DNA of 64,000 nt, from contig NZ_DS989904.1 of NCBI RefSeq assembly GCF_000155595.1, forward strand, positions 442,477 through 506,476. The letters are read 5' to 3'. Below, piece after piece: positions 1,069-9,276 of this stretch (position 1 is its first letter; the number at the start of each line of letters is the position of its first letter). The position numbers were made by a program, and so were the translations under genes. The notes beneath the pieces were generated by a model. That model was not told the origin of the DNA, did not search any database, and saw only the letters and a program-made list of their open reading frames with translations. This stretch comes from Synechococcus sp. PCC 7335. Its GTDB lineage: Bacteria > Cyanobacteriota > Cyanobacteriia > Phormidesmidales > Phormidesmidaceae.

Positions 1069-2370
1069 CTATGAGCTCACGCAGCGAAAACCTGAAAATA
1101 TTTCCCGCCGGTGGGGATGATACCAGTTACGAAAGCTAGGCCGCTTCACCCATCTTGGCGTAGCCCAGCTTCCCCCTTTCAATACCCGATGCTCTCTATC
1201 AAAGTAAATTTGTGAATAGCCCTTGTAAGGAAAAGGCTGAAATCCTACATAACCTGAGAACCAGGTGTCTGTCCATTCCCAAACGCTGCCTGACTCAAAG
1301 TTGCCTGTATAAGCTGTTCCCCTATAGTCTGTAGGATTTAGGTCTGTAGTCAGGCCGGTAGTTGAGCCAGTAGTCGGGTCAGTAGTCGCGCCAGTAGTCG
1401 TGTGGATGCGTTCAGGCTTAAGGGTGATTGCCTTCTCCCATTCAGATTCTGTCGGTAGCCGTTTGCCTCTGTACCTTGCATAAGCATCGGCTTCATACCA
1501 ACTTACGCCGCAAACTGGATAATTATCCCAGTTTCTTTGATCCGACAGTGCTTTATATGATGAAGGGCTATCGAGTAGAGTGTCATCTGGCCAATAGAGC
1601 GGTCTATCTACCCGTGCGGACTTTAGCCACCTCCAGCCGGCTTCATTCCACCACTTTGCCTGGTGATATCCACCATCTTCTACAAACTCTCGGTACTGTT
1701 TACAGATCACAGGGGCACAATCAATCCAATAATCCCCTGTCGAAACTAAATGTGCCGGACGCTCATTATCAATAGCCTCTGGCGCATCAGAGCCCACAGT
1801 TGCACTACCCGCTGGGACATAAACCATGCGGTTACTTTCAGTAGAAGAAACTGGTCGAACTGTCGGATAAATAAACGCTCCGAAGTTTTGCTGATGCATC
1901 GCTAGCACCATCACGATCGTTTCTGCATGCTGACTTTCGTGTTGAATTAGCCAGTGCCAAAGACGACTATCTTCGAGATTGCTGTTGTTTAGATAGTCGA
2001 GTGTTTGCGATCGCACCGTCTGGAGATAAGCCAAAATCTCATATAATTCGGGTAGATTCTGGCGTTCCGACTTTGGCAGTCCATCTGCCGCAAACAGACG
2101 CTCATACTGCGAAAACGGTTTGGTCGAACCAGCTAGGTATTCTGCAATCCACAAAGACTCTGTATAGGCAATATGTCCTAGATGCCAGCCAACCGGACTA
2201 AAATCGGGATGTGATTGAGTGCGAAAAGCTTTACAGGTGATGCCTTGGACTAGATCTAGCGTTTGGCGACGACAGTCTTGAAGTGCAGATTGGAGAGAAT
2301 GGGTAAGCGAACTTGGAGCCGGGCAGAAGAGAGGTAAATAGTGCAATGAACTGTAAAGATAAGACGACAT
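1069..2370 (-). CDS. egtB: EgtB-type iron-dependent sulfoxide synthase
   Basis: Predicted to join hercynine to a cysteine donor with O2 (C-S bond and sulfoxide formation) in ergothioneine synthesis. N-terminal DinB-like domain (about residues 25-170) carries the non-haem iron ligands: H66 in WHLGHIAYTE and H144/H148 in HESQHAE (HX3HXE). A C-terminal formylglycine-generating-enzyme/sulfatase-modifying fold follows (about 183-433; VPAGSATVGSD, GSVWEWTDTWFSG, LKGGSW, GFRCVSS). Length 433 fits the family. An unusual Thr/Gly-rich stretch near residues 322-342 is encoded by a 12-bp tandem repeat and lies in a loop of the FGE domain. Starts 19 bp after egtC. The EgtC neighbour suggests that gamma-glutamylcysteine is the sulfur donor. 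Confidence 0.88.
   Translation of the reverse strand: MSSYLYSSLHYLPLFCPAPSSLTHSLQSALQDCRRQTLDLVQGITCKAFRTQSHPDFSPVGWHLGHIAYTESLWIAEYLAGSTKPFSQYERLFAADGLPKSERQNLPELYEILAYLQTVRSQTLDYLNNSNLEDSRLWHWLIQHESQHAETIVMVLAMHQQNFGAFIYPTVRPVSSTESNRMVYVPAGSATVGSDAPEAIDNERPAHLVSTGDYWIDCAPVICKQYREFVEDGGYHQAKWWNEAGWRWLKSARVDRPLYWPDDTLLDSPSSYKALSDQRNWDNYPVCGVSWYEADAYARYRGKRLPTESEWEKAITLKPERIHTTTGATTDPTTGSTTGLTTDLNPTDYRGTAYTGNFESGSVWEWTDTWFSGYVGFQPFPYKGYSQIYFDREHRVLKGGSWATPRWVKRPSFRNWYHPHRREIFSGFRCVSS
1346..1405. repeat. 12-bp tandem repeat, 5 copies, inside egtB
   Basis: Five diverged 12-bp units starting GTAGTC or GTAGTT at 1346, 1358, 1370, 1382 and 1394. On the coding strand they give the in-frame Thr-rich segment of EgtB, so copy-number change would preserve frame. 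Confidence 0.85.
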
Positions 2371-2388
2371 ACCAAGCCAAAAGCCGTA

Positions 2389-3198
2389 CTAGTCGATAGT
2401 CGCATAGCTTTTAACGGTTAGCTCGCTATCTATACTAACGAGTTCACTTTGGTTATACTCCTTCCAGCCGTCTTCAAAGAGTCCTTCCGAGCTAAGGATG
2501 ATGGAATGAGGAAAGCGTTTTGAATTTTTTAGTAGGTAGAGGGAAGGCGCTTTTTTCTGGTTGTCATATCTAAGCGCAATCAGGCGATCAGGCGTCGACA
2601 GAATGATATTGGCAGCGATTCTAACGCCGGCATCGTTTGCCATGCTCACCAATGTCTTTATTGTCTGATGCATGGCTTCCGCAATATCTATGCCAGGTTG
2701 CATTTCTAGGTAGTGAACTAGCAGAGCAAAGATGTGCTCTGAATCAGTGAGGCCTTGAATCGACTGGTACGCATAATCACATAGCTTTTCTCGGATAGGA
2801 CGCTGCAGCGATTCAAAAAAGTTCTCGATTAGGCCATTGTGCACAAACAGCATTTGTTTGTACTGAAAGGGCTGACAATTGCTGATATCCACAGGCATCT
2901 TGTTTGTGGCGCTACGCAAGTTGACCACAAAGCTGCTAGCTCGAATATAGCGACACAGATCCTCTAAACTGCGATCGTTCCACATCGGTAGGATATTGCG
3001 ATAGACAAAAGGATCGCTCTCTAGGGTTCGACCGTCTACAGTTTGACCGTGCCAGCCTAACCCAAAGCCGTCTCCGTTGAGCACAGCGCTCTTGAGTTCC
3101 TTTGGCTGATAGCTCTGTACCAGCATAGAGTGAATGGGATTTAGTACCAGCTGATCAAGAGAAATTTGTGGACCTAGATATCCTAGAATTCGGCACAT
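2389..3198 (-). CDS. egtC: EgtC-like class II glutamine amidotransferase (gamma-glutamyl hydrolase)
   Basis: N-terminal nucleophile hydrolase expected to remove the gamma-glutamyl group from the EgtB sulfoxide product. The protein begins MCRILGYLG, so Cys2 becomes the nucleophile after Met removal. Further family marks are DGFGLGWHG near residue 43, NLRSAT near 94 and the FVHNGLIENF loop near 118. At 269 residues it matches stand-alone glutaminase-domain proteins. It is the first gene of the minus-strand egt run, with egtB only 18 bp downstream. The fold alone does not prove EgtC, because other DUF3412/YafJ-type amidotransferases look alike, but the neighbours make EgtC the best call. Confidence 0.85.
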   Translation of the reverse strand: MCRILGYLGPQISLDQLVLNPIHSMLVQSYQPKELKSAVLNGDGFGLGWHGQTVDGRTLESDPFVYRNILPMWNDRSLEDLCRYIRASSFVVNLRSATNKMPVDISNCQPFQYKQMLFVHNGLIENFFESLQRPIREKLCDYAYQSIQGLTDSEHIFALLVHYLEMQPGIDIAEAMHQTIKTLVSMANDAGVRIAANIILSTPDRLIALRYDNQKKAPSLYLLKNSKRFPHSIILSSEGLFEDGWKEYNQSELVSIDSELTVKSYATID

Positions 3199-5010: not shown

Positions 5011-6015
5011 CTACCTAGCTAAACTCTCTTCTATCCACCGTAGTAAATCAGAGACAACTGTATTGGCATCTAGATCATTGTGTGGCTCATGGTAGCTGCC
5101 TGGATAGATCTTTAGCGTTTTGTCACGACTGTTGACTTGCTGAAAGATCATTTTGCTACCAGAAGGAGAAATAATTGGATCCGCTTCCCCGTGCGTTAGC
5201 AGTAACGGCAGCGTGAGCTGATCGATATGATCTTTCACCCAAGCAAGCGTGCTAAGTGTTTCGCTACCCCAACGTAAAGTAACAGACGAATGTGTCAGCG
5301 GATCTTCAGCCGCTTGGTCAGCAACGGAGGGATCGCGAGAAAGCCCTCCCTGATTCAGCCCCATGTTAAGACTAAACCTAGGAAGTAGCCTGGAGAGCAA
5401 CCGAGCTAAGACCATGCGTCGTCGGCTAGCTGTCCCTATCGTGGGCTGAAACGGTGGTGCGCTAACAATCAGCCCTTGCACGTTCAATGTTTGAAACGCA
5501 GCCGAATTGGAACTGCGCAGAACATAGTCGAGCACGATGAGACCACCCAAGCTATGGCCCATCAAAAACAGAGGAGCAGTCGGCTCTTGCTGACGAATCA
5601 ACGATAGGAAGGCCTGCGTATTCTCACGATAGTCTTGCCAACGGTCGATATGACCCCGCTGACCTTCGGACTTACCATGACCTTGATTATCGAAGCCAAA
5701 GACGGCATATCCCGCGGCTGTAAGACCACTAACAATTTGGCAATAGCGCCCAGAATGCTCACCCAGGCCATGCACAATCGCTAGAACGCCTTTAATATCA
5801 GTAGGTGCTTGAATATCGGACCCAGGAAAGTCAGCACTATCCTCTTGCAGATCAAACACGTCAAGATCGCCCTCAACAGCGCTTTGGCTAGAATCCTTAC
5901 GAACGGGTAATGGATACCAGCTTTGATAGAAAAGCTGCAGATTATTTGCGCCCAAAAAGGTGCCTTGAGGAGGGAGTCGCGTGGAGGTCATCGTGGCTGA
6001 GAAAGCATAGGTCAA
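5011..6015 (-). CDS. Alpha/beta hydrolase, monoacylglycerol lipase-like
   Basis: Serine hydrolase of the lysophospholipase/monoacylglycerol-lipase group (Hydrolase_4). The oxyanion region is HGLGEHSGR at about 82-90, the nucleophile is S155 in GHSLGG, the acid is in the HGEADPIIS segment, and the histidine is in YPGSYHEPHND near the C-terminus. An acidic insertion at about residues 40-75 (SAVEGDLDVFDLQEDSADF) is unusual. The start could be M1 or M9 (MTSTRLPPQG). Likely substrates are acylglycerols or lysolipids, but nothing in the sequence fixes this. No co-directional partner lies within 180 bp. Confidence 0.85.
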   Translation of the reverse strand: MTYAFSATMTSTRLPPQGTFLGANNLQLFYQSWYPLPVRKDSSQSAVEGDLDVFDLQEDSADFPGSDIQAPTDIKGVLAIVHGLGEHSGRYCQIVSGLTAAGYAVFGFDNQGHGKSEGQRGHIDRWQDYRENTQAFLSLIRQQEPTAPLFLMGHSLGGLIVLDYVLRSSNSAAFQTLNVQGLIVSAPPFQPTIGTASRRRMVLARLLSRLLPRFSLNMGLNQGGLSRDPSVADQAAEDPLTHSSVTLRWGSETLSTLAWVKDHIDQLTLPLLLTHGEADPIISPSGSKMIFQQVNSRDKTLKIYPGSYHEPHNDLDANTVVSDLLRWIEESLAR

Positions 6016-6147: not shown

Positions 6148-6222
6148 TTATAAAAGTCTCGCTTATAAAAGCTCTGCTCACAGAATTTCTGCTCATAAGA
6201 TTTCTGCTCACAAAATCTCTAC
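6148..6222. repeat. 15-bp tandem repeat, 5 copies, spanning the stop codon of the dikinase-like gene
   Basis: Units begin at 6148, 6163, 6178, 6193 and 6208. Read on the minus strand they duplicate the last codons plus the stop of the upstream gene, giving successive in-frame AEIL-stop-like pentacodons after the true stop at 6208-6210. Divergence between copies is 2-5 bases. Confidence 0.88.
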
Positions 6223-9200
6223 AGTGCCATTTTGACCGTCAATGCGAACGCGCTGGCCAGTAGTGAGCTTTTGAGTAGCATCGTTCACATTCATGACGGC
6301 GGGTATACCATATTCTCTAGCAATAATGGCACCGTGGGAGAGCTGACCACCCACTTCTGCAATTAGCCCACCAATACGAGCAAGTAGTGGCGACCAGCCA
6401 GCATCCGTATATGGCACCACTAAAATAGTTTGGGTGTCAATCTTGGTGATGTCCCCTGAGAGGGTCTCAAGCACGTGAACGTTGCCTTCAGCCTGGCCAG
6501 CACTAGCGCCAATACCTTTAAGCACACCAGCCGAAGCGGGGACTACATTAGTATTTACCAGAGGCGTGTTAGCCGTTTGACCATAGATCAAGTAGGGAAC
6601 CCGCTGCTCTTTTTGGCTTTCCCACCGGGCTTTCTCCAGATGGATCTTCAGTCGAAGCTCAGCGGCAGGAAGCGGGTTAGTGATCTGTGTACGGATATCT
6701 GACCAAGTGAGAAAGAAGAGATCACCTTGAGACTCTAAATAGTCGGCGGATAGCCAACGACTTTCAAGCTCAACGAAGCAGCTACGCAGGGTCGCTAGCA
6801 AACGGTCGTAGACTTCTGCGACGCGCCCTTTTAAGTCTAGGCGCGTTTGAACCTGTCTTGATTTCCAGGTAGATTTGACCGATTTAGATCGCTGAGTGCT
6901 CGAAGACTGCTGGGCTATGCCGGTATTTAGCTGGCTAGCCTTGGGGTTAAGAAGGTATTGGGTGAGCAGCTCTCGGACAGGCTGAGGAGACTCGCGCCAA
7001 GTAGGAACGGCAATATCGGTAGCAACTTCGCTGAGGTAGCCGTATCGATCGAGGAAGCGATCAATCTGATCGAAAACCAGATGGCCATCAGGATGCTCAG
7101 CTAGCGCTGCAAATAGAGAGGCACTGCTGTTGGGCGTTTGCAAATCTGAAGTGATAGGAGATTTGAGACCGAGTTCAGAGAGATGCGATCGCAACTGCAC
7201 AGCCATCTGCTTAATCTCTTCAAGCGCTCTCACCTCAGGATTTTTGCTGCTATCTAGTGAGGCTAGATCTACTTTGAGTATGGCCTGTCTTAGTGCCACA
7301 CTTAAAGGAGCCAGAATATTGTAGTAGGTGGCCTGCTTTAGCAGCGCTAGAATTTCCTCGATTCGTTCTACCACAGCCGACTCGGTCAACTCACCGGCTG
7401 GCTGATCTTGCCAACGCGCTAGTGCAGGAGAAAAGTCTTCACTATCAGCCTTGGCGAACTGACTGGGTAGGCCGTTCTCTTGAGCGGCCAGTCTGAGCAA
7501 TCCAGGCAGGTTCTGCAAGGTAGTCATCAACGGTGGGCGCTGAAACTTAGCCCCTCGCGTGAGAAATTCTAGACTGTCAGGGGGTAAACCCATACGAGTG
7601 AAGATATCGCCGAGCAGCGTAGCATTGAAATAGGCGCGGGCATAGTGCAAGGTAGCGGTCTGAGAAAAGTCAATGCCCTCAGCCCGGCGTTTGAGTACGG
7701 TTGTAAACAGATCGCCCCAGACACCACAGGTAAGCGGACGATTGATAGACCAAGTCAGTGGACGAATCGCACCTGGAATAACTTCGGCGGCAATCTTACG
7801 CGTCCAAATAGGTATCAGCGTCGTCACCGGGCGGCTCTGCAACACCCATAGCTGCTGACCGTCAAAGGTCCATTCAATATCTTGTGGAATGCCATGAAAG
7901 CTATCTTCTAGGTGCCTGGCTAAGTAGGCAACCCGTTGGATCAGGCGGTTAGGAACTTGACCATGACCTTCTACCGGCAGAGTAGTCTCTTCAGGCAAAT
8001 GCCAGTCAGCATCTTCAGGTAGTTCGCCAACGTTGACCTGATAGCGTTCAGGTGTAATTTGACCTGAGACCACTCGGCTAGCATCACCCGGCAAGGCTTC
8101 AACAACAACGGTATCGCCAATGTGCGTCACCGGATCGCGGCTAAAAGCAACACCAGAATAGGTACCGAAGATATGCGGCTGAACCAGAACATTCATGCGG
8201 CCCTCTGGTAAATTTCGGTCCTGACGGTAGCGGATGGCAGAAGGGGCGTTGTAAGCGTTAAGACAAACAGTGATAGCTCGCTCTAACGCTTGAGGACTGG
8301 TGATCTCGGTAACTGAAACATATTGACCCGCCGCAGAGGCATTAAGGCTATCTTCACCTGTGGCAGACGATCGGGCAACGACAGTGATGCCTCGCTCGCT
8401 CGCGGGTTGGCGACTGCCGACTGAGAGATTAGTTGCTGTGGTACTAGCAGTGGGATTGGTAGTCGTGAGATTGGGGTTGGGGAAGACAGCCTTGATTAAA
8501 GCGGCGGGATCGTCGCCAGCGGGTAAGACATACCCAGGCGGGACAGGATAGCCCAGAGCATGCAGTTGAGAGAGGGTGGCGGCTTTGGGGCCAACCTTGC
8601 TAGCTTCTAGGGGTTGACTAAGCGTAGGGAGGGCGCGATCGCCTTGAAAAAAACGAAACATTCGGCGAGATTCTCCAGCACTGTTAGCAGCAATTAAATC
8701 CAAATCGTTGGGAATTTTGCTGTAAATCCAGGCGACTAGACCAGACAGACAAGCCACAACCAGGATTCGCATGCCGTCGGTGGGATGACGCAATGCGGTC
8801 AGCACAGGCATCAGCACCAGCACAAACAATTTGCCTTGGTCGCGCATTCGCAGCAGCGTAAAGCTGATGAGACTAATTAGGAAGGTCAGTCCCGCCACGA
8901 CCGGATCGTAAACAAAAAATCCCCAAGCGACATTAGTTGTCCCGGCCCCCTGACTACCCCAATAGCGGCCCATCACAATAAACATCAGCGAAATAATTGG
9001 CCAAACAGCGTCACCGCCAAAAAAATAGCGAGCCAATAGGATAGAGAAGATTCCTTTAAAGGCTTCAGCCAAGACAGCTAAAACGCCTACTAGAGTGCCA
9101 CCGTGATAGAAAGCGGCAGAAACGCTGATGTTACCCGTGCCAAGCTGGCGAAGGTTTTTACCGGTGAAAGCACGCACAATCCACCCTGTCAGCGGGAGAG

Positions 9201-9276
9201 CACCAAGCAAGGGGACAAGCGTAAAGATCAAGAGAGCGCCAAGAACTTGAGCCATGGGGGCAAAGGGAGAGGGCAC
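6208..9276 (-). CDS. PlsY-like membrane domain fused to PEP-synthase/rifampin-phosphotransferase-like dikinase
   Basis: Large (1022 aa) fusion. Residues 1-195 hold six or so membrane segments resembling PlsY glycerol-3-phosphate acyltransferase (LGTGNISVSAAFYHGG near 45), but the PlsY His and glycine-rich GGKG motif appear replaced (GRYWGSQGAGTTN near 103). Residues 220-490 are a PPDK-type ATP-grasp domain (VVARSSATGEDSLNASAAGQ at 299, GVAFSRDPVTH at 375, IEWTFDGQQLWVLQSRPVT at 467). A helical middle region follows to about 930. The swivelling phosphohistidine domain ends the protein, with H981 in GGQLSHGAIIARE. The PEP/pyruvate-binding barrel is absent, as in rifampin phosphotransferases. 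The substrate is unknown. The start is GTG at 9276; an ATG at 9255 (MAQVLG) is a good alternative. Confidence 0.85.
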   Translation of the reverse strand: MPSPFAPMAQVLGALLIFTLVPLLGALPLTGWIVRAFTGKNLRQLGTGNISVSAAFYHGGTLVGVLAVLAEAFKGIFSILLARYFFGGDAVWPIISLMFIVMGRYWGSQGAGTTNVAWGFFVYDPVVAGLTFLISLISFTLLRMRDQGKLFVLVLMPVLTALRHPTDGMRILVVACLSGLVAWIYSKIPNDLDLIAANSAGESRRMFRFFQGDRALPTLSQPLEASKVGPKAATLSQLHALGYPVPPGYVLPAGDDPAALIKAVFPNPNLTTTNPTASTTATNLSVGSRQPASERGITVVARSSATGEDSLNASAAGQYVSVTEITSPQALERAITVCLNAYNAPSAIRYRQDRNLPEGRMNVLVQPHIFGTYSGVAFSRDPVTHIGDTVVVEALPGDASRVVSGQITPERYQVNVGELPEDADWHLPEETTLPVEGHGQVPNRLIQRVAYLARHLEDSFHGIPQDIEWTFDGQQLWVLQSRPVTTLIPIWTRKIAAEVIPGAIRPLTWSINRPLTCGVWGDLFTTVLKRRAEGIDFSQTATLHYARAYFNATLLGDIFTRMGLPPDSLEFLTRGAKFQRPPLMTTLQNLPGLLRLAAQENGLPSQFAKADSEDFSPALARWQDQPAGELTESAVVERIEEILALLKQATYYNILAPLSVALRQAILKVDLASLDSSKNPEVRALEEIKQMAVQLRSHLSELGLKSPITSDLQTPNSSASLFAALAEHPDGHLVFDQIDRFLDRYGYLSEVATDIAVPTWRESPQPVRELLTQYLLNPKASQLNTGIAQQSSSTQRSKSVKSTWKSRQVQTRLDLKGRVAEVYDRLLATLRSCFVELESRWLSADYLESQGDLFFLTWSDIRTQITNPLPAAELRLKIHLEKARWESQKEQRVPYLIYGQTANTPLVNTNVVPASAGVLKGIGASAGQAEGNVHVLETLSGDITKIDTQTILVVPYTDAGWSPLLARIGGLIAEVGGQLSHGAIIAREYGIPAVMNVNDATQKLTTGQRVRIDGQNGTVEIL

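Follow-up and report, generated by a model that had tools for sequence, protein, structure and literature searches.

A PlsY-like membrane domain fused to a barrel-less dikinase is widespread in cyanobacteria and may phosphorylate a lipophilic acceptor

The stretch of DNA analysed here (the window; 64,000 nucleotides of Synechococcus sp. PCC 7335) carries on its minus strand a 1022-residue open reading frame that extends exactly from 6208 to 9276, as reported in a first-pass annotation. Because homologues start at or near residue 8 of this frame, the true start of the gene is probably ATG 9255, giving a product of 1015 residues, rather than GTG 9276. The window is cyanobacterial, the neighbours of the fusion including chlM, and some genes further along, named by eye, are presumably NDH-1 subunits. 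Promoter and terminator scans gave scores not above those of shuffled sequences. The features of the locus are as follows.

6208..9276, minus strand: whole fusion gene, PlsY-like / ATP-grasp / helical middle / phosphohistidine swivel (start at GTG 9276, more likely ATG 9255)
8725..9213, minus strand: PlsY-like seven-helix membrane domain, residues 22-184 (PF02660, 65.1 bits; PlsY fold, Z 18.1)
9097..9144, minus strand: pocket block 1, residues 45-60, GTGNxxVSAAFYHxG, replacing PlsY motif 1 (S35 to T47, R45 to Y57)
8932..8967, minus strand: pocket block 2, residues 104-115, with R104, equivalent to PlsY His92, and a loop rich in glycine (family consensus GKGAGTTN; SQGAGTTN in this protein)
7813..8661, minus strand: ATP-grasp (PPDK_N) domain, residues 206-488 (K231, R302, E308 and D309 invariant)
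6547..7812, minus strand: helical middle domain, residues 489-910, where RPH has its rifampin-binding acceptor domain
6211..6546, minus strand: phosphohistidine swivel domain, residues 911-1022 (PF00391, 79.2 bits; fold match)
6334..6336, minus strand: codon of H981, the predicted phosphohistidine (His in 63/63 of the core family)
5011..6015, minus strand: downstream alpha/beta hydrolase (Hydrolase_4, 246 bits)

Three Pfam domains were identified in the fusion, comprising G3P_acyltransf (PF02660) at residues 22-184 (65.1 bits against a cut-off of 24.1), PPDK_N at residues 297-487 (119.5 bits) and PEP-utilizers (PF00391, the phosphohistidine domain) at residues 947-1017 (79.2 bits), and the same three were found in 23/23 homologues of the first alignment. 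No Pfam match to a PEP/pyruvate-binding TIM barrel was observed in the fusion, where the middle and swivel domains fill residues 489-1022. Structural comparisons used the second of two AlphaFold2 models, built from 29 sequences (pLDDT 80.7, pTM 0.57), which replaced a first model from a thinner alignment that was weak in the swivel domain; at this pTM, how the membrane domain sits against the dikinase is not reliably predicted. Modelled residues 4-205 match PlsY (PDB code 5xj7; Z score of 18.1 and rmsd of 2.9 over 180 aligned residues), while residues 200-1015 match, over the whole length, the rifampin phosphotransferase RPH-Lm (PDB code 5hv3; Z score of 35.6 and rmsd of 25.7 over 650 aligned residues), an rmsd which implies that the domains superpose singly, as hinged units, and not as one rigid body. 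The modelled swivel domain matches those of pyruvate kinase and EI (Z 14-15, rmsd ~1.5). Both the Pfam and the fold matches thus bear out the initial description of a PlsY-like N-terminus followed by an RPH-like order of domains without the barrel.

Like RPH-Lm (PDB codes 5hv1-3 and 5fbs-u), the fusion presents an ATP-grasp domain, a helical domain at the acceptor position and a C-terminal phosphohistidine swivel, has no barrel and keeps the ATP-site residues and the catalytic His; unlike RPH-Lm, to which it is ~20% identical, it displays an added N-terminal seven-helix membrane domain and does not conserve the R-E-x-x-K acceptor signature. PEP synthase and PPDK share the ATP-grasp and phosphohistidine domains, but the fusion lacks the PEP/pyruvate barrel and has its His domain at the C-terminus. 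Other derivatives of dikinases that have been put to use on different acceptors or partners are VadK (M. tuberculosis Rv1127c), HpeHI and PigC/RedH; to our knowledge none of them has been described with a PlsY-like domain, and NCBIfam PigC/RedH models match the fusion far under their cut-offs.

Residue conservation was counted over 63 core fusion sequences with a median pairwise identity of 0.54. In the dikinase half K231, R302, E308, D309, E468 and H981 are each present in 63/63, H981 lying within the GGQLSHGA motif of the swivel domain, consistent with its earlier designation as the phosphohistidine. Equivalents of the RPH ATP-site residues Lys22 and Arg117 and of the catalytic His825, to which K231, R302 and H981 correspond (PMC4844700), are therefore intact throughout the core family. 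The middle domain contains 91 invariant residues, arranged in long runs that include the motifs WTRxIAAEVIPG, PLTWSIN and PLTC. The RPH acceptor signature Arg666-Glu667-x-x-Lys670, retained even in the remotest described RPH clade, is not conserved in the fusion: in an ungapped alignment to RPH-Lm, K816 and G817 occupy the positions of Arg666 and Glu667, giving K816-G817-x-x-A/T, and an alternative register through invariant R812 and K816 would retain the Arg and the Lys, not the Glu. An RPH-like acceptor site can therefore not be assumed for the fusion.

The altered signature would suit a regulatory or protein kinase, in which the dikinase would phosphorylate itself and then act on protein partners, and the membrane domain would sense a lipid or the state of the membrane instead of presenting a substrate; VadK has been proposed as such an autophosphorylating, dikinase-derived regulatory kinase in M. 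tuberculosis (PMC13400623). We regard this reading as doubtful, since the 91 invariant residues at the position of the RPH acceptor suit a small-molecule site and a conserved partner gene, looked for among the neighbours, was not found. Across the phylum only clade-limited neighbours were observed, namely, within the Phormidesmis/Leptolyngbya clade, the adjoining alpha/beta hydrolase (5011..6015), a possible partner, and, within Pleurocapsales, a DUF21/CNNM-like protein named by eye.

PlsY numbering was transferred by aligning the canonical PlsY of this genome to A. aeolicus PlsY, followed by profile alignment to the fusion. Like PlsY (acyl-phosphate:glycerol-3-phosphate acyltransferase; PDB codes 5xj5-9), the fusion displays PF02660 and the seven-helix fold (Z 18, rmsd 2.9), and it retains Asn37 (62/63), mostly the hydroxyl of Thr41, as Ser (58/63), and a shortened glycine-rich loop resembling the phosphate hole. 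Unlike PlsY, it carries Tyr (Y57) for Arg45 in 61 of the 63 sequences, Arg (R104) for His92 in all 63, Pro (P189) for Asn180 in 58 and, at the position of His177, Gln, Thr or Ser (Q/T/S186) and never His, the alignment of TM7 being less certain for the last two positions. Ser35 is replaced by Thr (T47) in 62/63, and the position of Lys104 (residue 109) holds K in 32 sequences, R in 18 and Q in 11, Q being found in this genome. Neither the G3P clamp and catalytic set (Ser35, Arg45, Lys104, Asn180, His177) nor His92 is thus kept in the core family; the catalytic His had been read as replaced, and the alignment, in which intact PlsY catalytic residues were sought and found lost, agrees. The companion claim of a replaced GGKG holds for the variable Lys position but not for the loop, which is shortened yet retained, with the consensus (G/x)GKGAGTTN and SQGAGTTN here.

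Most substitutions at Arg45, His92, His177 and Asn180 cost A. aeolicus PlsY ~80-99% of its activity (PMC5700162), and with these residues lost the membrane domain of the fusion is therefore unlikely to acylate G3P. A second working glycerol-3-phosphate acyltransferase with a regulatory dikinase tail would account for the PF02660 and PlsY fold matches, for Asn37 and for the mostly retained Thr41 hydroxyl, but given the lost residues, and a canonical PlsY in this genome and nearly all carriers, it is the least probable of the readings considered here.

The former active site has not simply eroded. Invariant positions make up 20/39 of the former PlsY active-site blocks, compared with 12/159 elsewhere in the membrane domain (Fisher p = 3e-9), so that the pocket, as aligned, is not decaying, and the motifs GTGNxxVSAAFYHxG, EAxKG, GRY and AGxTN are near-invariant in the 63 core sequences. 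Y57, H58, R104 and AGxTN are newly conserved relative to PlsY, in a domain that is now joined to a dikinase. It could be argued that the membrane domain only tethers a soluble small-molecule kinase whose acceptor is unrelated to the PlsY pocket, as the domain outside the former active-site blocks is poorly conserved and RPH-type enzymes function without a membrane part. This appears rather more doubtful than the regulatory reading, since the former active-site blocks hold 20 of the 32 positions that are invariant in the membrane domain, a conserved buried polar pocket is unexpected for a plain anchor, and pocket positions are lost exactly where dikinase residues are lost, as described below.

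The glycine-rich loop, partly retained and resembling the acyl-phosphate site of PlsY, together with loss of the G3P clamp, would also fit a fatty-acid kinase, in which the dikinase would make an acyl-phosphate to be held in the phosphate-binding loop and passed to canonical PlsY; a lipase-like hydrolase indeed adjoins the fusion in the clade of the window. That neighbour is clade-limited, however, acyl-phosphate is already supplied by PlsX, and we know of no dikinase that phosphorylates a carboxylate, which together make this reading highly improbable.

The PlsY-dikinase fusion is widespread in cyanobacteria and not peculiar to Synechococcus sp. PCC 7335. A tblastn survey of 292 genomes of the cyanobacterial phylum gave matches in 97, with 84 in the photosynthetic class and 13 weak ones outside it. 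The core fusion is present in ~81/139 sampled Cyanobacteriia (the 84 less three of a degenerate genus, g20; counted from listings); no non-photosynthetic class in the sample has it, and the Cyanobacteriia without it are mostly small-genome lineages. A search of 84,980 named species genomes, seeded by exact peptides of this protein and reaching close relatives only, returned loci covering the membrane part that are all cyanobacterial, save one contig, while the non-cyanobacterial matches cover the dikinase part only. The exception (L054), filed as Candidatus Gracilibacteria, holds a full-length cyanobacterial-type fusion and is probably mis-binned. In G215 (L185:1718-4707, plus strand) the fusion is split near residue 190 into two adjacent frames, a frameshift or sequencing error.

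Canonical PlsY, encoded elsewhere in this genome, co-occurs with the fusion in all sampled carriers except two, G051 and G064, whose apparent loss of PlsY had raised the idea that the fusion replaces it. For G051 this idea was rejected. Absence calls in the sampled genomes require a check for masked (N) stretches, and in G051 the syntenic canonical plsY site enters one of 6 kb (L155:6002-12001), so that its absence there is no evidence of replacement. Substitution of the phytyl-phosphate kinase (VTE6-type, PF01940) was likewise rejected, as that gene occurs in 138/139 Cyanobacteriia with or without the fusion and there is therefore no complementarity.

Degenerate relatives are informative about the relation between the two halves. 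In genus g20 (G058, G083 and G211) Gln stands in place of the swivel His (H981), and the Glu-Asp pair of the ATP-grasp domain, pocket block 1 and AGxTN have all been lost. The frames are intact in G083 and G211 (900-914 residues), the G058 sequence being partial, and dN/dS between G083 and G058 is 0.061, so that the g20 product is under purifying selection though predicted to be dead as a dikinase. The g20 version suggests that a fusion-type protein can also have a non-catalytic role, and its retention at a dN/dS of 0.06 is a further point for the regulatory reading. At two g20 loci, L181:7458-10157 (minus strand) and L182:7411-10152 (plus strand), the gene is followed within 50 bp by that of a PMT-family glycosyltransferase and then by kaiA, kaiB and kaiC. 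In G036 (L180:6833-8032, plus strand) 400 residues derived from the membrane and ATP-grasp domains remain, in which neither site is present and no Pfam match was found. A second copy in G170 (L184:7332-9104, minus strand; 591 residues) comprises the PlsY-like, ATP-grasp and swivel parts with the whole middle domain absent; its pocket and ATP-grasp motifs are altered and its swivel His is retained. A ring-opening amidohydrolase (AtzD/TrzD family) is encoded near this copy. Joint damage to the pocket and the dikinase residues is thus seen in 3/3 degenerate relatives, and in none of them is it confined to one of the two sites. Only three events are involved, and relaxed constraint on the whole protein could give the same pattern.

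The near-invariant pocket and its joint decay with the dikinase residues in three relatives suggest, indirectly, that the membrane pocket works with the dikinase. The explanation that we favour, tentatively and at slightly less than even chances, is that the fusion is a membrane-integral dikinase phosphorylating a lipophilic acceptor held by the PlsY-derived pocket and the middle domain. The ATP-grasp domain would bind ATP and transfer pyrophosphate to H981 in the swivel domain; after loss of the outer phosphate, phospho-H981 would swing to the acceptor, yielding acceptor-phosphate, AMP and Pi, as in RPH. The acceptor would sit at the cytoplasmic leaflet, where the pocket and the helical middle domain would hold it jointly; the former glycerol-3-phosphate site would have been rebuilt (Y57, H58, R104), with part of the phosphate-binding loop remaining. 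Other barrel-less dikinases phosphorylate a rifampin hydroxyl (RPH; PMC4844700) and hydroxyphenylethanones (HpeHI; PMC12167813), and we infer that the fusion carries out comparable chemistry and that its acceptor is a lipid. A variant in which phospho-H981 delivers to an acceptor inside the membrane-domain pocket, and not to an RPH-type middle domain, would make the fusion a new two-step His-dikinase lipid kinase, and is unlikely.

Both parent families, PlsY and dikinase, are already known. No published account of the architecture or function of the fusion was found in the openly accessible literature, in agreement with the first-pass annotation, which knew of no described function for it. If pocket and dikinase cooperate, the fusion would act inside a membrane, as no other dikinase known to us does, and PlsY would have been recruited for a task other than acylation. 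More than half of the photosynthetic cyanobacteria sampled carry the fusion, so that this class may have an as yet unrecognised phosphorylated membrane compound or regulatory step.

Elsewhere in the window, at 1069-3198, adjacent matches to the ergothioneine biosynthesis proteins EgtB and EgtC were observed, that to EgtB (348.5 bits) lying slightly under the cut-off of 360 and that to EgtC (251.5 bits) above its own.
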